Positions 10,298 through 45,688 of a DNA stretch of 64,000 nucleotides are shown one piece after another. The notes beneath the pieces were generated by a model that saw nothing but the letters and a program-made list of their open reading frames with translations, made no database searches and was not told where the DNA came from. Each line of letters opens with the position of its first letter. The stretch's first letter is position 1. The stretch is taken from NCBI RefSeq assembly GCF_015841355.1, contig NZ_CP064908.1, positions 1,302,001 to 1,366,000 of the forward strand, in the 5' to 3' direction. The DNA comes from Synechococcus sp. CBW1107 (lineage in GTDB: Bacteria; Cyanobacteriota; Cyanobacteriia; PCC-6307; Cyanobiaceae). The position numbers and the translations under genes were made by a program.

Positions 10298-10882
10298 TCA
10301 CTCCCGGCGAGGACGCCGGCTGGAGCGGGGCAGGGGTCGACTGCCAGGAGGGACGGAGCCCGTGGGATCCGGCTGCTGTCGTGGCGGCTCGAATGGCGCT
10401 GGCGGCGCCTGCGCGTCCGCTCGTGCAGGCTGAACGCCAGCCGGGCCGCGAGCGGGAGGCAGCAGGGGGGCCCCCCGGCGGGAGATGGCCTCCAGGGGGC
10501 GTCGGGTTCCTGCCACCGGACCCTGGGCCCTGGCCGCTGGCTGGGGTTGCGGCTGACGCTCGCTCCTGAGTTCCGACGGCATCAGGTCCGGTCGCTGCGG
10601 GGGCCTTCCGCGTTCTGGGGTCTCGGCCCGCTCCTGCCAGGGTTCCGGCCAGTCGTCGTCGCCTTCGAGGAACCAGTCGATGCTGTTCTCCACCCAGCGG
10701 CCCAGACCTTCCAGGCCCGGGCGCCCGCCGGCTCGGCGCTCGGCTCCACGGCCCTGTGTCCGCGAGCCCGGGCGAGCTCCGGCCACTCCATCCACCAGTT
10801 GCCGTCCCGCCGACATCCATTGATCCAGAGACCCGCCGGTGCGGCGGCGTCCCCGGCGGGGAGGATCACCCGAACCGTTCAT
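10298..10882 (-). CDS. Low-complexity hypothetical protein
   Basis: I do not recognise this protein. From the ATG at 10882 it has 194 residues, with another ATG six codons upstream. The composition is dominated by arginine, proline, glycine and glutamine, so most of it is probably disordered. One short ordered-looking block stands out, LGRWVENSIDWFLEGDDDW followed by PEPWQER, roughly residues 56-82. That block is the part most likely to be conserved. No signal peptide or membrane helix is visible. It ends 44 bases before the DUF1269 gene on the same strand. Confidence 0.55.
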   Translation of the reverse strand: MNGSGDPPRRGRRRTGGSLDQWMSAGRQLVDGVAGARPGSRTQGRGAERRAGGRPGLEGLGRWVENSIDWFLEGDDDWPEPWQERAETPERGRPPQRPDLMPSELRSERQPQPQPAARAQGPVAGTRRPLEAISRRGAPLLPPARGPAGVQPARADAQAPPAPFEPPRQQPDPTGSVPPGSRPLPRSSRRPRRE

Positions 10883-10932
10883 GGCCCTCGCCTGTGCCAT
10901 CGCAACCGATGTGATCCGACCTTAACGGCCCT

Positions 10933-11067
10933 TCATCGGCCGCCGGCCCGGCGCGGGCTCGGGCCCAGAAGCCCCAGCCGGTGGGCCCGCATCCAGCGTT
11001 CCCGACCCAGGCCCAGCAGGGCGATCACGACACCCCCTCCCTGCAGCATCCAGAGAAACAGATCCAA
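10933..11067 (-). CDS. Possible 44-residue membrane microprotein
   Basis: A reading frame starting at TTG (11067) begins 25 bases past the SprT stop and encodes 44 residues: a hydrophobic segment (LFLWMLQGGGVVIALLGLG) followed by a strongly basic tail rich in arginine. This single-pass, positive-inside layout is typical of small membrane proteins. An internal ATG gives a shorter 38-residue form. There is no homology evidence, so this is a candidate only. Confidence 0.3.
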   Translation of the reverse strand: MDLFLWMLQGGGVVIALLGLGRERWMRAHRLGLLGPSPRRAGGR

Positions 11068-11729: not shown

Positions 11730-17629
<5,900 letters not shown>

Positions 17630-17682
17630 TCCAGGAAGGAGACAGGGGACGCCGGAACTGTCCTGCGGGAGCGTCGGCTCCG

Positions 17683-17712
17683 TCGTTAAAGGGGCATTAG
17701 CAGGGTGTTAAG
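17683..17712 (-). promoter_or_regulatory. Pho box upstream of the PhoX-like gene
   Basis: Read on the minus strand, three 8-bp repeats occur at exact 11-bp spacing: CTTAACAC, GCTAATGC and TTTAACGA. The cyanobacterial Pho box is three PyTTAAPyPy(T/A)-type repeats separated by 3 bp, and is bound by the phosphate response regulator (SphR/PhoB). The first and third repeats carry the TTAAC core; the middle one is weaker. The site ends 54 bases before the start codon. Confidence 0.65.
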
Positions 17713-17816
17713 CGAGTGGCGCATGACGCCCGCGTCACCTGGCCGGCTGGCCAGGGCCACCGGCGGGGGTGATCCCGCGCACCGACAAGGGGTCGAGCCC
17801 GCGGCACGGCACCGTC

Positions 17817-18476
17817 TCAGCCCGGGTCCTGCCGCTCCAGCGCCCGCCGGGCCGCCCGGCCCGCCACCCAGATCGAGCCCGCGGTGGCAACCAGCCCCAG
17901 GATCCGCAGCGCCCAGGTGCCGGCGTCGGCCTCGCCGTTGAGCACGTCCCCGAAGTGGGCCACGTCACCGGCCAGCTCTCCGAGAGCACAGAACAGCACC
18001 GTGCCCGGCAGGATCGCGATCAGCCCGATCACGTAGTCGCGCAGGCTCACCTCGCTGAGGCCATAGGCCAGGTTGAGCAGGCTGAAGGGAAAAGCCGGCG
18101 AGAGACGCGTGAGCAGCACCAGCTTCAGGCCCTCCCGGCTCACGGCCCGCTCGATCGCCATCAGCCTCGGGAACGCCTGCAGCCGGCGGCGGGTCCAGCC
18201 GCGCCACCAGTGGCGACCCAGCAGAAAGGCGGCCATCGCCCCGAGGGACGCCCCCACGAACACGATCACGCTGGCCAGGACGGTGCCATAGAGCGCCCCG
18301 GCCAGCATCGAGGCCCACACGCCCGGCAGCAGCAACGTCACCCAGAGGGCATAGAGCGGCACGAAGGCCACCGCCCCGGCGGGGGAGCGCAGGGCCGGCA
18401 GCACCGGCTCGAGCCAGGAGGACAGATCCAGAACCGCAGGGCGGACAACGTCAACACTGGCAGGCAGGAGCCACAC
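17817..18476 (-). CDS. TVP38/TMEM64 family inner-membrane protein
   Basis: From the GTG at 18476 the protein has 219 residues with five to six membrane segments. The DedA-superfamily core is visible: LPGVWASMLAGALYGTVLASVIVFVGASLGAMAAFLLGR, then a hydrophilic helix and LVLLTRLSPAFPFSLLNLAYGL, where the proline-rich re-entrant loop lies. Family members are thought to be lipid scramblases or transporters. The GTG start is uncertain; the first conserved helix begins about 36 residues later. Its 5' end abuts a debris region holding a broken membrane glycosyltransferase gene. Confidence 0.9.
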   Translation of the reverse strand: MWLLPASVDVVRPAVLDLSSWLEPVLPALRSPAGAVAFVPLYALWVTLLLPGVWASMLAGALYGTVLASVIVFVGASLGAMAAFLLGRHWWRGWTRRRLQAFPRLMAIERAVSREGLKLVLLTRLSPAFPFSLLNLAYGLSEVSLRDYVIGLIAILPGTVLFCALGELAGDVAHFGDVLNGEADAGTWALRILGLVATAGSIWVAGRAARRALERQDPG

Positions 18477-27056: not shown

Positions 27057-28133
27057 TCAGCCGGAGTGGGGTGGGAGGTAGACCTCCTGGCCGAAGACGT
27101 TCTGGACCACGAACAACAGCACGAAGCCGATCATGGCCGAGATCAGTGGCGTGGTGACCCAGCCGGAGGCGATCCCTCCAAGGACGCCCCAGCGAATCTG
27201 GCGGACCCCCTTGAGGCCCTGCAGCAGGCCGATGCCAAGCACTGAACCGATCACCGCCTGCGAACCCGACACCGGTAACAACGGAATCGTGGGCAGTCCA
27301 AGATTCGCCAGCAGGCTCTCCAACGCCGTGGAGGAGAAGAGGAACAGCACCAACGAATGGGACACCACCACCACGAAGGCAGCCAGGGGTGAGAGGGTCA
27401 GCAGGCTGTCACCCACGGTCAGCATCACGCGTCGTGAGTAGGTGTAGACACCCACAGCCACAGCGATGGAGCCGATCAGAAACAACTGCTCCACGGACGA
27501 AACATTGATGCTGCCAACGGCGAGATCACGGAATGGTGACGCTTCCACGAAGAAGCCCATCACGTTGCCGATGCCGTTGGCGCCGATGGCATAGGAACCG
27601 AAGATACCCGCCAGGACAAGGCCTGTGCGGGTGTTGCGATCGAGCGAGAGCAGGTGAGGCTGACTGAGGCGAATCCACTCCAGCAGCAGCTTGTACAGCA
27701 CCATCGCGAAGATCGCCCCGAGCACGGGTGAGATCGCCCAGGTGGCCACGATCCGGCGCAGTGTGCCCAGGTCGGTGGGTGAGCCACTGAACAGGTTCCA
27801 GCCGATGATCGAACCCACCACCGCCTGACTGGTGGAGGCCGGCAGGCCCACCTTGCTCATCCAGGCCACCGTGACCGCAGCCGCCAGGGCAGCCGTGAAG
27901 GCGCCCGGCAGGGCGTTGATGGAGCCCAGCTGTCCAAGTCCCTCGGCGGCGCCGGCGCCACTGGTGACTGCGCCGATGATCACGAACGCGCTGCACAGGA
28001 AAGCGGCGGTGGAGAAGCGGATCATCCGTGTGGCCACGGCGGTGCCGAAGGCGTTGGACGCGTCATTCGCCCCCATCGACCAGCCCAGAAACAGGCCACT
28101 GGAGAGGAAAACCAGGGTGACGATCAGGGACAC
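27057..28133 (-). CDS. PiT-family inorganic phosphate transporter
   Basis: The protein has 358 residues and about ten membrane segments. Both PiT signatures are present: GANDASNAFGTAVATRMI near the N-terminus and GANGIGNVMG in the middle, with SQAVVGSIIGWNL and GSQAVIGSVLGIGL as the inverted repeats. PiT carriers import metal-phosphate, driven by H+ or Na+. The gene directly follows a DUF47 gene with a 15-base gap; this DUF47-PiT pairing is common and DUF47 is thought to regulate the carrier. Confidence 0.92.
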   Translation of the reverse strand: MSLIVTLVFLSSGLFLGWSMGANDASNAFGTAVATRMIRFSTAAFLCSAFVIIGAVTSGAGAAEGLGQLGSINALPGAFTAALAAAVTVAWMSKVGLPASTSQAVVGSIIGWNLFSGSPTDLGTLRRIVATWAISPVLGAIFAMVLYKLLLEWIRLSQPHLLSLDRNTRTGLVLAGIFGSYAIGANGIGNVMGFFVEASPFRDLAVGSINVSSVEQLFLIGSIAVAVGVYTYSRRVMLTVGDSLLTLSPLAAFVVVVSHSLVLFLFSSTALESLLANLGLPTIPLLPVSGSQAVIGSVLGIGLLQGLKGVRQIRWGVLGGIASGWVTTPLISAMIGFVLLFVVQNVFGQEVYLPPHSG

Positions 28134-28148
28134 AGAGAAACCTCCAGC

Positions 28149-28811
28149 TCAGAGCGAACGCTTGATCGCAAAGATCGAGAGGTCATCGCCGATGTTCTCC
28201 GCCCTGTCGGCCATGGAGTCGATCATGGCCACGGCTTCCCGCAGCTGGGAACGCTGCTCAAAGCTGAGTTCGGTGGCGAAAATCCTGCGCTTCATCCGCC
28301 AGGCGAGCTTGTCGGTTTCATCTTCGAACACCCGCACTTCGTTGATGTGGTCACGCACAGCGACCGGTGCACGGAAGAACGTGCGGGCCGCCGCCACCAC
28401 GGCCTGCACGCAGCGGATCGCCATGTCGGTGAGATCGGCAAAATCCTGGCCGAATTCCGGCAGGCCGCGCGGCTGAACGACCATCAACTCCTGGAAGTTG
28501 TCACCCATCTCATCGAGCAGCTCGAACAGGCTGCCGAGCAGGCGCAGCACGTCGCCGCGGGCATCGGGCAGCAGCATCTCGGCATAAAGCATCGTGACGA
28601 TCGTGCGTCGCAGTTCACTGCAGCTGCGCTTGATCTCAATGATCTGATTCAGCTTCTCAAGGCAGATCTCCGGTTCCTCGTGGGCAGAGAGATAGGCTTT
28701 TATGCCCACCTCGACGATGATCACACCCTCGGAGATCTTGTCGAGAAACTCATCAATCAGCCCGACCAGAAACCTTGTTTTACCGAAAAGCGGCGGGGTT
28801 TCGCTGGACAT
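28149..28811 (-). CDS. DUF47 (PhoU-like) phosphate transport accessory protein
   Basis: From the ATG at 28811 the protein has 220 residues, nearly all helical. It has the PhoU-like coiled segments CLEKLNQIIEIKRSCSELRRTIVTMLYAEMLLPDARGD and VFEDETDKLAWRMKRRIFATELSFEQRSQLREAVAMIDSMADRAENIGDDL. The E/D-rich clusters are the usual metal-binding positions of PhoU-like proteins. It is the first gene of a two-gene unit with the PiT carrier. It probably tunes carrier activity. Confidence 0.9.
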   Translation of the reverse strand: MSSETPPLFGKTRFLVGLIDEFLDKISEGVIIVEVGIKAYLSAHEEPEICLEKLNQIIEIKRSCSELRRTIVTMLYAEMLLPDARGDVLRLLGSLFELLDEMGDNFQELMVVQPRGLPEFGQDFADLTDMAIRCVQAVVAAARTFFRAPVAVRDHINEVRVFEDETDKLAWRMKRRIFATELSFEQRSQLREAVAMIDSMADRAENIGDDLSIFAIKRSL

Positions 28812-29309
28812 TGGCTTCCCCCTCCACGCCTGCATTGCGTTGTGGAAGTATAGCTGCCATGGTTCACCGCCTTTCCGCCTGCTGCAGGTTCGTTGCAACC
28901 ACAGCCTCCTGCAGGGCCACCGCCGCGTGACGCCGTACAAGCCAATTGCGCACCGGCCAGTTGCACGATGGCCGGAAAGTGCGGGCCGCGTCCAGAGAGG
29001 GCTGCAAGCTTCAGTGCGTCAGCTCCACTTCCGCGGGGAAGGGGGCGCTCGGTGCGGAGCGGAGGCACTCCTTCTCGTCTGGATCCAGGAAGCCATGGAA
29101 GATCCAGGCAGTGAGCAGGCGGCGGACTGGGGCTTCGGTTGAGGGCAAGCACGCGAACCGGGTGCCTCCCAAGGGAGGCCACCGCACGAACGCCACACCC
29201 CGGACGGCGCTGACGCCCGTGCTCAGGGAATCGCCACCGGAATCCGGGGCAGCGGGAAGCCTGCCTTGCCATGAACGTCACTGATCACACAGTTGGTGTC
29301 GACGTACAT
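28812..29309. other. Intergenic region upstream of the DUF47/PiT pair
   Basis: This 500-base stretch must contain the DUF47 promoter at its left end. Several overlapping short frames exist, including one of 61 codons on the minus strand (29011-29196), but none has a recognisable domain or ribosome-binding site. I regard it as decayed sequence next to the mscS relic. Confidence 0.5.
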
Positions 29310-29934: not shown

Positions 29935-31429
29935 TCAGTAGTCCTTCCCGGCCTTGAATCGAGCCTGAAGCGCATCCTCCTCGGCCGTGCTGGAACCATC
30001 GCCAGCATCCAGGCGGATGTCCACCTGCCTGATGCGTCCCGTATAGCTGTAGGGGGGCCGATAGTCGTTGCACAAAGGGGATCCCGTATCCGCGCCCACG
30101 CCAAAGGTGTCGATCCCGAAGCGCCCCGCCACGGTGTGGGGAATCCGCTGACGCCCCACCTCCTGGCCGATGAGAGAAAGGTCCCCTTCACCCCCCTGGC
30201 CGACACCACCACCGTCGTAGTGGAACTTGAAGCACAGCGATGACGATCCTTCGGGCAAAGGCTGACCGGAGCGGATCACCGTCCGCTCCCGATCGAGCCA
30301 GTTGTAGTGATAGATGGGCGTGCCATCTTTGACGTAGAGCACAAAGCCCACCGACTGGCCCCCGATCGCCAGCAGCACGCCATCGCCGGGCCGCTCGATC
30401 TGGATCTCGATGCTGTGGGAGCGATTCTTCGTGTTCGGCGCCGCGGTCTCCGGCAGCCTGAGGGCACCCGAATAGTAGATGAAGTGGGTGCGGTTGGGGT
30501 CGGGCCCCTCCCGGCGGCGGCTTGGGAACGGCCAGGCGGGCCGCGCCACGATCATTGAGCGGATACACCCCGTAGGTTTCACATTCCTGATCGAAGATCC
30601 CCTGAAGCTCTGCCAGCTTCTCAGGATGGTCCATGGCGAGATCGTTGGCCTCGCTGAAATCTTCATCGAGATAATACAGCTCCCAGCGATCATTCTCCCA
30701 GTGCCCGGGGGCATAGTCCTGCCGCCAGGGGAAGGTGTGCTGGGCACAGGCGATCCAGCCATTGTCGTCAATGGCGCGGTTACTGAACACGTCGAAGTAT
30801 TGCCGCTGCCGTACCGGACGTGCCTGGGCATCCCTGAACGATGACGCGATCGGCACACCATCCATCGGCTTCTGGGGGACCCATCCACCGTGCCTGGAGC
30901 CGGAATCCCGGCCACATCCAGGATGGTGGGCACGATGTCAATCAGATGGGTGAAGATGGGGCGAGTGGCCCCATGATCCTTGATCGTCTTCGGCCAGGAG
31001 ACCACCATGGGATTGCGGGATCCGCCCAGGTGACTGGCCACCTGCTTCACCCATTGAAACGGTGCATTCCCAGCCCAGGCCCAGCCCAGGGGGTAGTGGG
31101 GCTAGGTATCAGAATTGCCGATGTCATCGATCCGCATGAGGGTCTCCTGGAGATCTGAGGGCACACCATTGAGGTTCATCACCTCATTGATCGTGCCCGT
31201 CAACCCGCCCTCGGAGCTGGCTCCGTTATCACCCACGATAGAGAAGATGAGGGTGTTCTCGGCATCGGGCAGTTCCTGGATGGCCTCCAGCAGCCGCCCG
31301 CACTCCTGATTGGTGAACGAGAGGTAGCCCGCATAGTTCTCCATGGAGCGGGCATAGAGTTTCTGCTCATCCTGCGTGAGGGACTCCCAGGCCGGGCACC
31401 ACTCCGGCCTGGGAGTGTTCTCCGTTCCC
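29935..31429 (-). pseudogene. 3' two-thirds of a second arylsulfatase gene, frameshifted
   Basis: The segment matches arylsulfatase from the middle of the catalytic domain onward: SLTQDEQKLYARSMENYAGYL, IFSIVGDNGASSEGGLTG, NPMVVSWPK, and the C-terminal subdomain up to ARFKAGKDY. A TAG at 31102-31104 interrupts it just before HYPLGWAWAGNAPF. The frame shifts near 30865 and shifts back near 30500. The 5' third, including the formylglycine site, is missing. It is fused in sequence to the upstream sulfatase (next entry), apparently by recombination between tandem paralogues. Confidence 0.8.
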
Positions 31430-32966
31430 GGAGGAACGAGGTGCCCGGCCAGGGGCACACCGCGCGCCAGCCCTCGTGATACAGCGAGCGATGGCCGAAC
31501 ATCTCGAAGTACTGGGTGCGGTGCAGGCTCGGCGCTCCGGCATCGTCGAAGCAACTGCGCAGGCTGAAACCTTCGATCGGGCTCTGGGTCACGCCCCGGA
31601 TCGTGGCCGGCGGCTCGAAGCCGAGGGCATCGAGCACCGTGGGCAGCATGTCGATGGCGTGGGCGTACTGGCTGCGGATCTCGCCCCGGGCGGCGATGCC
31701 CTTCGGCCAGCTCACGATGAAGGGATCGCTGGTACCGCCCCGGTAGGTCTCGCGCTTCCAGCGGCGGAAGGGGGTGTTGCCGGCGTGGGTCCAGCCCCAG
31801 GGGTAGTGGTTGAAATGCTTCGGGCCGCCGATGTCATCGATGGCGGCCAGATTCTGCTCCAGGCTGTCAGGAACATTGTTGAAGAACTTGCCCTCGTTCA
31901 CCGACCCGGTGGGCCCGCCCTCGGAGCTGGCGCCGTTGTCGGAGATCAGCATGATCAGGGTGTTGTCATATTCCCCCAGCTGCTTGAGAAAGGAGATCAG
32001 CTCGCCGATGTAATGGTCGGCGTGCTCGAGGAAGCCGGCGAACACCTCCATCATGCGGGCGTAGAGGCGCTTCTCCTCCGCCGAGAGGCTGTCCCAGTCC
32101 GGCACGTCGGGATCGTGGCGGGAGAGAACCGTGTGGGGCGGAATGAGGCCCAGTTCCTTCTGGCGGGCGAACACCTTCTGGCGGTAGGCCTCCCAGCCGT
32201 CATCAAACTGCCCCTTGTACTTGTCTGCCCACTCCTTCGGCACGTGGTGCGGTGCATGCATGGCACCGGGGGCGAAGTAGAGGAAGAAAGGTTTGTTGGG
32301 GGCCACCTGTTTGGCATCGGCGATCATCGCCTTGGCCTGCGTCACCAGATCCGGGGTGAGGTGGTAACCCTCCTCGGGGGTGGCGGGGGGCTCCACCTGG
32401 GTGTTGTCGCGCACCAGCTCGGGGTAGTACTGGTGGGTGTCACCCCCCAGGAAGCCGTAGAAGCGCTCGAACCCCCGGCCCAGGGGCCAGCGGTCGTAGG
32501 GGCCCGCGGCGGAGGTGGCCTCCGCCGGCGTGAGGTGCCACTTGCCCACGGCGTAGGTGTTGTACCCCTTCTGCAGCAGGATTTCCGAGAGGTAGCCGTT
32601 CGCGAACGGGATGTAGCCGTTGGAGCCGGGGTAGCCCATCGACCCTTCGGTGATGCAGGCCAGGCCGTTGGAATGGTGGTTGCGGCCGTTGATGATGCAG
32701 GAGCGCGACGGCGAGCACAGGGCCGTGGTGTGCATGTTGCTGAAGCGCAGCCCCTGGGCCGCCAGGGCATCGATGTTGGGGGTGGCGATCGGGCTGCCGT
32801 AGCAGCCGAGCTGGCCGTACCCCAGGTCGTCCATCACGATGACCAGCACATTGGGGCTGCCCTCCGGGGCTCGTATCGGCTCGGGCCAGGCCGGGGTGGA
32901 CACATCGGCCGTGCGGCCGATCACTCCGGGGAAGGCCGAACCGGGCCGGTATGCCTTGGGCGCCAT
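31200..32966 (-). pseudogene. Arylsulfatase gene truncated and fused to a second sulfatase
   Basis: From the ATG at 32966 the first 500 or so residues are a well-preserved arylsulfatase of the AtsA type: NVLVIVMDDLGYGQLGCYGS (metal-binding Asp pair), the formylglycine site CSPSR with Cys84, GKWHL, HAPHHVPKEW and ISDNGASSEGG. After about residue 508 (near 31440, following AVCPWPGTSF) the frame runs into sequence of the neighbouring sulfatase out of register, adding about 80 meaningless residues before a stop. The C-terminal subdomain is therefore lost. I judge the product unlikely to be fully active, although all catalytic-domain motifs are intact. Confidence 0.75.
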
Positions 32967-33084
32967 CAAAACCAGCTATGCAGTTCCCCCGCAAGGTATG
33001 CAGAGCCTTCGGACGGGGGCATGAGGCCTTGAACAACCCTCACATCCCTCGAACGGGGGATCCGGCGGAGTTCAGGCCTCAGCC

Positions 33085-33708
33085 TCAGCCTGCGGCCAGC
33101 CGCTGCAGGTAGTCCTCCTGCCGGCCGGCATTGATCCAGCCGGTGGCGATCGTCTTGGTGTGCTGGTGGCTCACCCGGCCCCGGTGGATGTGCGACACCC
33201 CCGCCGGGAAGATCAGCAGCTTGCCCCGCTCGGCCTCCTCGTGGTGGTCCTGCCAGTGGAACTCGGTGCCGCCATCGGGGAGGGTGTTGAGGTAGAGGAT
33301 CCAGGCGAGCACGCGCCGGATCGGCTCGGTGGCCTCCTCGGTGGTGGTCCAGTCGCAGTGCCAGCTGCGGAATCCTTCTCCGGGCTGGTAGCGCTGCAGG
33401 TTGAAGATCGGGGTCACATGCAGCGCACGCTCCGGACACACCTCCAGCAGACGCGGACGCTCCTCGAGATAGCGCTGCAGACCGGCCGACACCCCCCGCA
33501 GGATCACCTCCGCCAGGCCGTGGGCTTCGGGATCGGAGCGGTCGATCGCCACCAGGCTGATGTCGGTGGAGACCTTGGCGGGTTGGGCGGGATCGTGGCC
33601 GAACGCCACGCCGGCACGCTGCAGATCAGTCCGCCGCTCATAGAACGCCAGGGCCGCGTCGGCCAGGGCGTCGTAACCGGGGCTTCGGTAGGTGCCGATC
33701 AGGCGCAT
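33085..33708 (-). CDS. 2-oxoglutarate/Fe(II)-dependent oxygenase
   Basis: From the ATG at 33708 the protein has 207 residues. The double-stranded beta-helix motifs are readable: HxD in SWHCDWTT, then LYLNTLPDGGTEFHWQDH, the distal His in PAGVSHIHRGRVS, and the 2OG-binding basic residue in the KTIATGW segment. This matches the prolyl-4-hydroxylase-like oxygenases. The substrate is unknown; PiuC-type relatives are linked to iron metabolism, but this member is only distantly similar. The gene is downstream of a hypothetical gene on the same strand. Confidence 0.87.
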   Translation of the reverse strand: MRLIGTYRSPGYDALADAALAFYERRTDLQRAGVAFGHDPAQPAKVSTDISLVAIDRSDPEAHGLAEVILRGVSAGLQRYLEERPRLLEVCPERALHVTPIFNLQRYQPGEGFRSWHCDWTTTEEATEPIRRVLAWILYLNTLPDGGTEFHWQDHHEEAERGKLLIFPAGVSHIHRGRVSHQHTKTIATGWINAGRQEDYLQRLAAG

Positions 33709-33749
33709 CACGTGCCTCCCACTGCCGGTCACCGTAGGAACCCACAAAT

Positions 33750-34238
33750 TCAGGCCGGCGCTGCCTCCCGCGCCCAGGGCATCGCCACCAGCCCATCGTG
33801 GCGCTGCCAGCTGTGGGGCTCGCTGAGCACATGCGCCGTCAGACCCACCTGCTCCAGGGCCGCGGCGAGGGTGGCCGGGACCAGCCCCCCTTCGCCGCCT
33901 GCGGGCTCCAGCGGCAGGGCCAGCACCCGGGGCTCGGCCGGATCGGCCATCAGCTTGAGGTTCACCTCCTCCAGCTCCCGCTCGAAGAACAGCCGCCGCA
34001 TCCGGGCGGTGGTGCGGGGGCCGATCGCCACCGCGAACACCTCCAGTCCCTCGCGGCTGCCGTCGGCGCCGCAGTTGAGCGCCAGCCAGATCATCAGCTT
34101 CGCCCAGCTCTCGGTGGTCCACAGGGGCTGGAAGCTGACGCGGTGCTGCCGCACCAGCTCCCCCAGGGCGAAGTCGAACAGTCCGGCCTGGAGCGCCGTG
34201 GCCTGGGGTGTGCTGGCGCCGGAGCCGGCTGAGGTCAC
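33750..34238 (-). CDS. Conserved hypothetical protein
   Basis: From the GTG at 34238 the protein has 162 residues. I do not recognise the family. It is alpha/beta in character, with conserved-looking blocks LFDFALGELVRQHRVSFQPLWTTESWAKLMIWLALNCG and FFERELEEVNLKLMADPAEPRVLALPL. No signal or membrane segment is visible. It lies 41 bases upstream of the oxygenase gene on the same strand and may be co-expressed with it. Confidence 0.65.
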   Translation of the reverse strand: MTSAGSGASTPQATALQAGLFDFALGELVRQHRVSFQPLWTTESWAKLMIWLALNCGADGSREGLEVFAVAIGPRTTARMRRLFFERELEEVNLKLMADPAEPRVLALPLEPAGGEGGLVPATLAAALEQVGLTAHVLSEPHSWQRHDGLVAMPWAREAAPA

Positions 34239-34382
34239 GGATGGAGCATGGCGGCTGCGATCCAGGCTGCCGCAACCGGGACCCTGATCAGGAGTTCCGC
34301 ACAGGAACGGCGGCTGGCGGGCCTGAACCGTTGCAGGTGCGCCCTTGGGGGCAAACTGCAAGGGCTTGCACAGGACACGCCC

Positions 34383-43344: not shown

Positions 43345-43821
43345 TCAGAGACCGAGTTCAGTGAGACCCGGGTGGTCTTGCGGCCTCGGTCCCTGCGGCC
43401 AGAGGAATTTGCGTTCCTCATCGGCAATCGGCACATCGTTGATGCTGGCCTCACGCCGCCTCATCAGACCCTGATCGCTGAACTCCCAGTTTTCGTTGCC
43501 ATAGGCCCGATACCACTGGCCACTTTCATCATGCCACTCGTACTGAAAACGCACCGCAATACGGTTGTCGTGCCAGGCCCATACTTCCTTGATCAACCGA
43601 TAGCCATTCTCCTTGGCCCACTTGCGCTGCAGAAACGCCACAATCTCCTGGCGTCCTCTGATGAATTCTGAGCGATTACGCCAGTAGCTGTCTTCCGTGT
43701 ATGCCAGCGATACTCTGTGGGGGTCGCGGGAGTTCCAGGCATCCTCCGCCATCCTGACTTTCTGTATCGCTGTTTCTTGATTGAATGGCGGAACTGGAGG
43801 TTTTACAGTCTGATCTATCAT
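43345..43821 (-). CDS. DUF1348 (SnoaL/NTF2-like) protein
   Basis: The protein has 158 residues. The DUF1348 pattern is clear: [43 protein letters not shown], then [26 protein letters not shown]. These small NTF2-fold proteins have no agreed function, though they often bind small ligands. It converges with cynS with 15 bases between the stops. GC is low, like the cyn operon, so it may have arrived with it. Confidence 0.85.
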
Positions 43822-44017
43822 GTTGGCTAAACTAGAAATTATATTGATGAATCCAGAGGTTTAACCGAACCTGCCGCCTCGCCGCGTATCAGGCGCTACC
43901 GAGCCAGGGGCACTCTCTGGCACAAGCGTCGATCGCAACACCAGGACGACAAGTTCCTCAGGATCTATCGTCACCCGAAGAGGAGCCTGTAACCGCCATC
44001 CTTCACGCTCTGCAGGT

Positions 44018-44701: not shown

Positions 44702-45688
44702 TCAGCACAGGGCCCCGAATCCGGTGAGTGTCTCATCTCGAGGCCAGAGCTGATGGCACTGCCCCGCCTGCCTCAGGCTGACGCCCCCGGCAACAGGCCC
44801 GAACTGACCGATGCAGCTCAGCTGCAGATCGGCGTACGGCGCCACGGCCGCCGCCAGGGCTCCGGCCCGCTCCGGACCTGCAGCCAGCAGATAGCCGTAG
44901 CTGGGAAAGCAGCACAGCCAGTCGTCCAGGCTGACCCCAGCTGGAGGGGTGATGGCATCGAGGTCGAGCTCCAGGCCGCAGCCCGCGGCTTCAGCGAACA
45001 TCACGGCCGTGCCGATCAGCCCTCCCATGCTGATGTCCTTGGCCGCATGAACCGTCCCGGCTTCCGCCAGCTCCGCCATCAGGGCCAGATGGCGGCGCAG
45101 CAGCGCCGGCTCCGCCCGGGTGGCTGCATCCCAGAAGGGATAGGGGTGGTGGACATGGCCGCTGGTGTTGATCAGCAGATGGCAGTGGTCTCCCGGGCGG
45201 GCGAAACGGGCCGAGAGCACCGGACCTGCCACCACCCCCAGCACGGCCACCGAGAGGGCGTTGTAGGGACTGTGCAGGTTGGTGTGACCTCCCACCACAG
45301 GCACCTGGAACGTCTCGGAAGCCACGCGCAGGCCATCGAGGAGGAGATCGGCATGCCTGGCCTCTCCACTCCAGAGACTGTTGACCACCGCCAGGGGTCG
45401 CCCGCCCATGGCGGCGATGTCGCTGAGGTTCACCAGCACACCGCTCCAGCCCGCAAACCAGGGGTCCTGATCCACCAGATCGGGATGGAGTCCCTCGCAG
45501 GCCAGCAAGAGGGAGCCCGTGGCGGCGGGCAGGAGGGCCGCGTCATCGCCCAGGGCCGCCGCCAGGCCGAGGGCCGGGAACGGGAGATGGGGGAAATGGG
45601 CCGCGGGACGCTGGATGTCCGTCTTGCCGCGCCAGCCAGCCAGTTGTCGCAGCCGCGCGGCCAGGGCCTCCAGATCGGGCTCACTCAT
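44702..45688 (-). CDS. Nit1C cluster AIR synthase-related protein (Sll0787 type)
   Basis: The protein has 328 residues with the PurM-like ATP-binding fold: GDDAALLPAATGSLLLACEG is the glycine/aspartate-rich nucleotide loop, and GHTNLHSPYNALSVAVLGVV the second conserved block. The C-terminal half contains the AKDISMGGLIGTAVMFAE motif. Enzymes of this fold phosphorylate an amide or carbonyl oxygen with ATP. The start overlaps the acetyltransferase stop by ATGA, so the two are translationally coupled. Confidence 0.92.
   Translation of the reverse strand: MSEPDLEALAARLRQLAGWRGKTDIQRPAAHFPHLPFPALGLAAALGDDAALLPAATGSLLLACEGLHPDLVDQDPWFAGWSGVLVNLSDIAAMGGRPLAVVNSLWSGEARHADLLLDGLRVASETFQVPVVGGHTNLHSPYNALSVAVLGVVAGPVLSARFARPGDHCHLLINTSGHVHHPYPFWDAATRAEPALLRRHLALMAELAEAGTVHAAKDISMGGLIGTAVMFAEAAGCGLELDLDAITPPAGVSLDDWLCCFPSYGYLLAAGPERAGALAAAVAPYADLQLSCIGQFGPVAGGVSLRQAGQCHQLWPRDETLTGFGALC

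Follow-up and report, generated by a model that had tools for sequence, protein, structure and literature searches.

A probable Pho box precedes the gene for a predicted two-propeller phosphatase of unusual domain combination in Synechococcus sp. CBW1107

Here, we ask whether three short repeats in the genome of Synechococcus sp. CBW1107 form a switch for phosphate starvation and, if so, what kind of protein this switch controls. The repeats lie at 17683-17712 of a stretch of 64,000 nucleotides (G000:C1:1302001-1366000; referred to as the window) in a genome that consists of a single contig of 3.2 Mb (3,202,093 bases) with 67% G+C. Because the closest genes in named records (L061-L070) are from Synechococcus, Cyanobium, and one uncultured cyanobacterium, and because T1B-Tous is counted among the freshwater strains in the available part of PMC9361551, the host is probably a freshwater picocyanobacterium of the Synechococcus/Cyanobium group. 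We found that the switch belongs to a known type and that the domain combination in the protein is unusual. Based on comparisons of sequences and on predicted models, we consider with good confidence that 17683-17712 would function as an SphR/PhoB operator that switches on an exported two-propeller phosphatase under phosphate starvation.

Read from 17712 to 17683 on the minus strand, the site is CTTAACAC cct GCTAATGC ccc TTTAACGA, i.e., three octamers at exact 11-bp steps, which bears out the spacing proposed in the sequence-only reading of this DNA. The distance to the gene, given there as 54 bases, is 53 when counted from the end of the box to the ATG at 17629; this start codon is backed by the MVASS start in common with the orthologue of a member of another genus of the family (G031). 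The box is intergenic because the upstream VTT-domain gene stops 104 nt before it (Table 1). In PMC1906773, a Pho box for SphR/PhoB is defined as three or more direct repeats of 8 bp that are separated by 3-bp linkers, and the site has this architecture. Two negative results weigh against the operator reading: a search of 17560-17860 gave no sigma-70-like -35/-10 pair, and inspection by eye of the bases between the box and the ATG gave no TANNNT.

Table 1. Features discussed in the text; positions are those of the window unless a locus is named
Feature	Position	Strand	Basis and remarks
Pho-box repeat 1, distal, CTTAACAC	17705..17712	-	7.2 bits, published-site matrix
Pho-box repeat 2, weak, GCTAATGC	17694..17701	-	0.0 bits, published-site matrix; YTAAY core kept
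Pho-box repeat 3, proximal, TTTAACGA	17683..17690	-	9.2 bits; ends 53 nt before ATG
1116-aa two-domain gene downstream of the box	14279..17629	-	ORF list; ATG 17629
Choice-of-anchor I beta-propeller domain, about residues 77-578	15896..17401	-	NF038117, PF22494, predicted model
PhoX-like phosphatase domain (predicted), residues 590-1116	14282..15862	-	predicted model, Foldseek, weak PF05787
VTT-domain (DedA-type) gene, upstream neighbour	17817..18476	-	Pfam; stop 104 nt before the box
PiT-family permease	27057..28133	-	PF01384, 176.1 bits; best promoter score 0.8
DUF47/PhoU_div gene, start uncertain	28149..28940	-	PF01865, 45.8 bits; paired with PiT
Weak sulfatase-like piece	29935-31050	-	below Pfam cut-offs; between PiT/DUF47 and sulfatase
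Sulfatase ORF	31203-32969	-	PF00884, 228.3 bits; about 2.3 kb from PiT/DUF47
2OG-Fe(II) oxygenase-like ORF	33088-34275	-	near PiT/DUF47
Short choice-of-anchor I and 5'-nucleotidase/RTX loci	L052:4277-8739, L053:1611-5947, L054:1107-5493	same strand	near-identical relatives

Could the triplet be a chance match in a less G+C-rich intergenic stretch of a genome with 67% G+C? We scored the site with a matrix of 27 of the 30 triplets in Table 1 of PMC1906773 (three PCC 7942 rows were omitted as repeats of PCC 6301). The site totals 16.4 bits and sits at the low end of the 14.9 to 35.4 bits spanned by the 27 matrix-building sites. As for likeness to the consensus CTTAACCT, the three repeats score 7.2, 0.0, and 9.2 bits with this matrix, and the middle repeat adds nothing; the earlier description of the box as clear suits the distal and proximal repeats and is generous for the middle one. 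This weak repeat speaks for chance, and so do the matches elsewhere: a 400-kb sample of the genome held one site of at least 16.4 bits, corresponding to roughly eight per genome if extrapolated from that single count, and in the window the site ranks second because an AT-rich stretch at 43816 scores higher (16.7 bits). By a Markov model, 0.33 sites this good are expected per genome, and 4 of 2532 control stretches of 200 bp in the window reach the score of the promoter. Because an equal-scoring site turned up in the 400-kb sample, the published matrix alone is not decisive; the objection anticipated in the sequence-only reading, namely many equally good matches at random sites in the genome, holds in part for this matrix. 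The pattern of three YTAAY at 11-bp spacing, which was drawn up after the site had been seen, matches once in the 3.2 Mb of the genome, at 17683-17712, and not at all in the reversed control. As for the slightly higher-scoring AT-rich stretch (43816-43845, plus strand), the next listed ORF of at least 100 aa that starts after it on the same strand begins at 44753.

What speaks against chance are the promoters of the orthologues and a second, independent matrix. We compared 200-bp promoter windows with the remaining windows of each locus for 16 orthologues from eight relatives' loci and eight named records, from which duplicate loci were omitted (L069 is G002, and L070 is G007) and among which G003, G007, and G008 are near-copies that do not count as independent. 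All 16 promoters contain a triplet. In all eight relatives' loci, the highest-scoring triplet anywhere in the 9-11 kb is found immediately upstream of the orthologue and on the same strand; for 13 of the 16 orthologues, a same-strand triplet within 200 bp of the start is the best of its locus, with similar spacing, and none of the 308-499 controls for each equals it. The remaining three promoters are weak: CS-1332 and CCY 9618 both score 3.0 (equalled by 8 of 456 and 19 of 500 controls, respectively), and T1B-Tous scores 8.0 (3 of 295). The gene starts, chosen by eye, lie 46-69 nt from the end of the box in 15 orthologues and 20 nt in GreenBA-s; the distance is 53 nt in G006 (GTG start) and 49 nt in HJ21 (ATG), for which the start in the window test was six bases too far. 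For comparison with the proximal repeat, G006 and CZS25K carry CTTAACGA and TTTAACGA, with a box that likewise ends 53 nt before a GTG start. Nine homologue loci from organisms other than picocyanobacteria (L071, L074, L076, L077, L085, L107, L115, L134, and L140), which are outside the count of 16, had no such arrangement at their top matches, as expected for AT-richer or unrelated genomes.

The second matrix was built from 13 of the 16 orthologue sites; it excludes the window site, and G003, G008, and CCY 9618 were omitted because they are near-duplicates. For CS-1332 and Loc090907, the register was fixed by eye. This clade matrix was run over 512,005 of the 3,202,093 bases (16%), about 48 kb of which had been picked for phosphate genes. 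The four highest-scoring sites were at 1119912 before pstS (21.6), the window site (18.4), at 477921 before a PstS-like gene (16.1), and at 1390089 before pstS (15.7); the first unrelated match scored 15.2, just below the fourth site. Thus, of the two genome scans, the one with the published matrix does not single the site out and the one with the clade matrix places it second in 512,005 bases, in the company of three PstS-like promoters. The PstS-like protein at 477921 scores below the cut-off of its family (TIGR02136, 190.9 versus 206.6), and, should translation start at the first ATG, the site would fall within the ORF. Only three of the genome's five PBP_like_2 genes have a site among the clade-matrix matches listed. 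Together with the orthologue promoters, this grouping leads us to regard a chance match as very unlikely. The analysis has also yielded a Pho-box matrix specific for this clade, with which PstS-like promoters can be recognised in a genome rich in G+C.

The genome also encodes a candidate regulator. In one row lie pstS, ptrA, a phoB-like gene, and a phoR-like gene. The PtrA-type Crp regulator passes its cut-off (NF053664, 346.7 bits versus 300); the response regulator is named PhoB-like by context because its TIGR02154 score of 231.9 bits is below the equivalog cut-off of 296.2. With the published matrix, Pho boxes were found before pstS (19.7 bits) and ptrA (20.5 bits), and with the clade matrix the ptrA box ranks twelfth (12.6). 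A third Pho-like triplet in this locus (L058:9967-9996, plus strand; 17.8 bits with the published matrix) faces away from pstS and points to a ParBc_2 nuclease-like gene at 10348-11001. Because the orthologues have the triplet, the clade matrix groups the site with PstS-like promoters, and the genome has the pstS-ptrA-phoB-phoR cluster, the reading of 17683-17712 as a Pho box holds at the level of sequence, and we conclude that the site is very probably a real Pho box of the known kind.

Which regulator would act on this box? PtrA has been reported as the main activator of part of the response in marine Synechococcus, and the ptrA gene, with a Pho box of its own, is part of the cluster; PtrA, or yet another regulator, might be the main activator at a box that is nonetheless real. 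We give this alternative only a slim chance, as the published SphR-type site consists of TTAA-type repeats spaced at 11 bp (PMC1906773). Rather, we favour PhoB. According to this model, when phosphate is scarce, phosphorylated PhoB from the pstS-ptrA-phoB-phoR cluster would bind the direct repeats and switch on the gene starting at 17629, the product of which would be an exported two-propeller phosphatase; its N-terminal choice-of-anchor I propeller is the part that also occurs in PhoA, an atypical alkaline phosphatase from Synechococcus elongatus, and its C-terminal PhoX-like propeller would release phosphate from organic esters via a calcium/iron site. For the site and its product, it is binding, induction, catalysis, metals, and export that we infer.

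The predicted protein was initially described as a giant PhoX-like phosphatase. This description fits residues 590-1116; approximately residues 77-578, however, form a choice-of-anchor I propeller, with scores that pass the cut-offs of both families (NF038117, 320.8 bits versus 300; PF22494, 145.1 versus 32). Consistently, residues 40-598, modelled on 48 sequences, are predicted to fold into a WD40-like propeller (pLDDT 87.0), and comparisons of this model with the PDB by Foldseek and VIA-align gave WD40-like and similar propellers. No phosphatase was among the best 50 matches in each of the two comparisons, a result that excludes nothing. We know of no activity assigned to choice-of-anchor I, and the term was absent from the literature searched. 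By eye, neither a signal peptide nor a twin-arginine motif is visible at the N-terminus. Because the Tat signal peptide of PhoX is not seen among the N-terminal residues, we refer to the protein as PhoX-like and not as a PhoX.

The question for the C-terminal half is whether it could be an active phosphatase. The gene might be Pho-controlled and yet encode a surface or scaffold protein with an inactive PhoX-like half, and there are points in favour of this: choice-of-anchor I proteins are widespread, no Tat signal is seen, and the PF05787 score of the protein is weak (21.6 bits in hmmscan and 24.2 in the whole-genome search, with a cut-off of 24). On the other hand, both orthologues tested pass this cut-off (CACIAM 14, 47.4; G002, 30.0), and the C-terminal model, built for residues 590-1116 on 10 sequences (pLDDT 79.5), is predicted to have the PhoX fold. 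In Foldseek, this model is matched best by PhoX from Pseudomonas fluorescens (3zwu, E 1.5e-17; 4a9v, E 4.7e-17), with a fold in common over 417-419 residues; in VIA-align, PhoX (Z 23.7, 3.6 A, 417 aligned residues) ties with a lactonase (Z 24.0 over 264 residues). At the sequence level, searches of the PDB with the whole protein, a five-sequence profile, and a C-terminal profile gave no match, and hhalign of the protein profile with a single PhoX gave a weak match (probability 3, E 0.015). Versus nine PhoX sequences (one from this genome plus 8 from the 23 loci tried), hhalign gave E 2e-07 and aligned R909-I-E911-D912 with the R-P-E-D of PhoX, which by our own count is R385-P-E387 in the P. 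fluorescens chain.

This alignment gave the PhoX counterparts of R909 and E911, two of six residues, C718, E744, E775, D795, R909, and E911, that are invariant in 10 of 10 sequences and that also argue against an inactive half. The other four were matched to PhoX by eye: FCSA (C718) to NCAN (C179), YLVGEET (E743, E744) to YLTCEEN, WES (E775) to KHE (E273), and FDD (D795) to GDD (D292). C179, E273, and E387 are active-site residues of PhoX. PMC11098088 names R385 and D292 as such. We conclude from the predicted model that the C-terminal half folds like PhoX and, from a mapping made partly by eye, that it probably keeps the active-site residues of PhoX, and we regard a Pho-controlled protein with an inactive PhoX-like half as unlikely. 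Unlike P. fluorescens PhoX, the CBW1107 protein has an extra N-terminal propeller, shows no Tat signal, and falls short of the PF05787 cut-off in hmmscan. PhoX is a usual Pho-regulon phosphatase, and a separate canonical PhoX is encoded in the same genome (match at G000:C1:757597-759351, within G000:C1:757369-759549; L056:3370-5550); none of the five sites that score highest with the published matrix in its 8-kb locus is a Pho box upstream of it. Based on family profiles and predicted models, the protein in the window is an unusual combination in which an atypical-PhoA propeller is joined to a PhoX-like domain.

How is this combination distributed? The protein was matched in 22 of the 60 genomes searched, including its own. 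Within the genus, eight further members were compared: the fusion is present in G002, G005, and G006, a short form in G003, G004, G007, and G008, and no match in G001; in another genus of the family, we found the fusion in G031 and an 1824-aa frame in G026. Both halves are in one frame in nine (L061-L069; L069 is the record behind G002) of the best 80 loci from named genomes, where 577 relatives met the limit. In plasmid records, none of the 51 matches extends over 80% of the protein, and the 10 of them listed have the first half alone, except for one Methylobacterium with the second half alone. In three of three near-identical relatives (G003, G007, and G008), a gene for a 792-aa 5'-nucleotidase/RTX protein lies downstream of the short choice-of-anchor I gene in the same orientation (Table 1); in G004, the next listed same-strand ORF (324 aa) matches no Pfam family.

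A precedent for the first half exists in S. elongatus. The gene phoA of strains PCC 7942 and PCC 6301 (Synpcc7942_1392 and syc0163_d), which encodes an atypical alkaline phosphatase, likewise combines a Pho-box triplet with a choice-of-anchor I part. Of 388 genomes of the class, one (L142), which we take as S. elongatus, contains the exact 30 bases of its published Pho box. The 1355-aa gene behind this box encodes a 5'-nucleotidase part, then choice-of-anchor I (NF038117, 601.1 bits), and then DUF4214, and it matches the window protein in the choice-of-anchor I part only (33% over 561 columns). The partner of this part is an N-terminal 5'-nucleotidase plus DUF4214 in S. elongatus and a C-terminal PhoX-like domain in CBW1107, and the box is at -214 for phoA (PMC1906773) compared with about -54 to -83 in CBW1107. 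In marine Synechococcus WH8102, the SYNW2391-SYNW2390 operon has a Pho box listed at -59 (PMC1906773), which we did not find in 400 genomes of the family. The consulted part of PMC3865332 describes the SYNW2391 protein as more abundant under low phosphate and SYNW2390 as annotated alkaline phosphatase/5'-nucleotidase; a box precedes the operon, as one precedes the gene in CBW1107, whereas that part of the text mentions no PhoX fusion, and we liken the two by description. The same is true of Psip1, a high-affinity phosphatase of marine picocyanobacteria: in the available sections of PMC11098088, it has a PhoX-like propeller active site with little sequence likeness to PhoX, and no choice-of-anchor I partner is mentioned. 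Atypical PhoA proteins (PhoA-aty) have four conserved motifs (Lin et al. 2015) and acidic motifs in common with a part of cyanobacterial phosphatases, according to the portion of PMC4548154 that was available, and an atypical-PhoA-type protein of an alga is induced by low phosphate, as stated in an excerpt of PMC6156274.

Given that the 5'-nucleotidase is fused in S. elongatus and separate in three near-identical relatives, and that the fusion in CBW1107 is to a PhoX-like domain, we tentatively speculate that the choice-of-anchor I propeller might serve the phosphate regulon as a module with exchangeable catalytic partners, expressed from a Pho-box promoter, and that the fused protein might be two-headed, with both propellers acting on phosphate esters; we hold this to be possible but rather doubtful. 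With its partner changed in this way, the atypical PhoA domain lends itself to a direct test of its function when alone. Altogether, our findings would link an unusually built phosphatase with the starvation regulon of picocyanobacteria, organisms that may obtain part of their phosphorus from organic sources.

The sequence-only reading had also counted the PiT/DUF47 pair as a second phosphate-acquisition system of the window. Pfam confirms both genes (Table 1), but neither has a Pho box upstream by the published matrix (PiT, 0.8; DUF47, -6.7 and -11.6 for two possible starts). Because the pair is without a Pho box and has a sulfatase gene at a distance of about 2 kb, the presence of two phosphate systems is only half supported. 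According to PMC9361551, PitA occurs in only 20 of 57 freshwater SC 5.2 isolates. The PiT permease of the window may serve sulfate rather than phosphate; it weakly resembles sulfate permease (62.4 bits, with a cut-off of 400).
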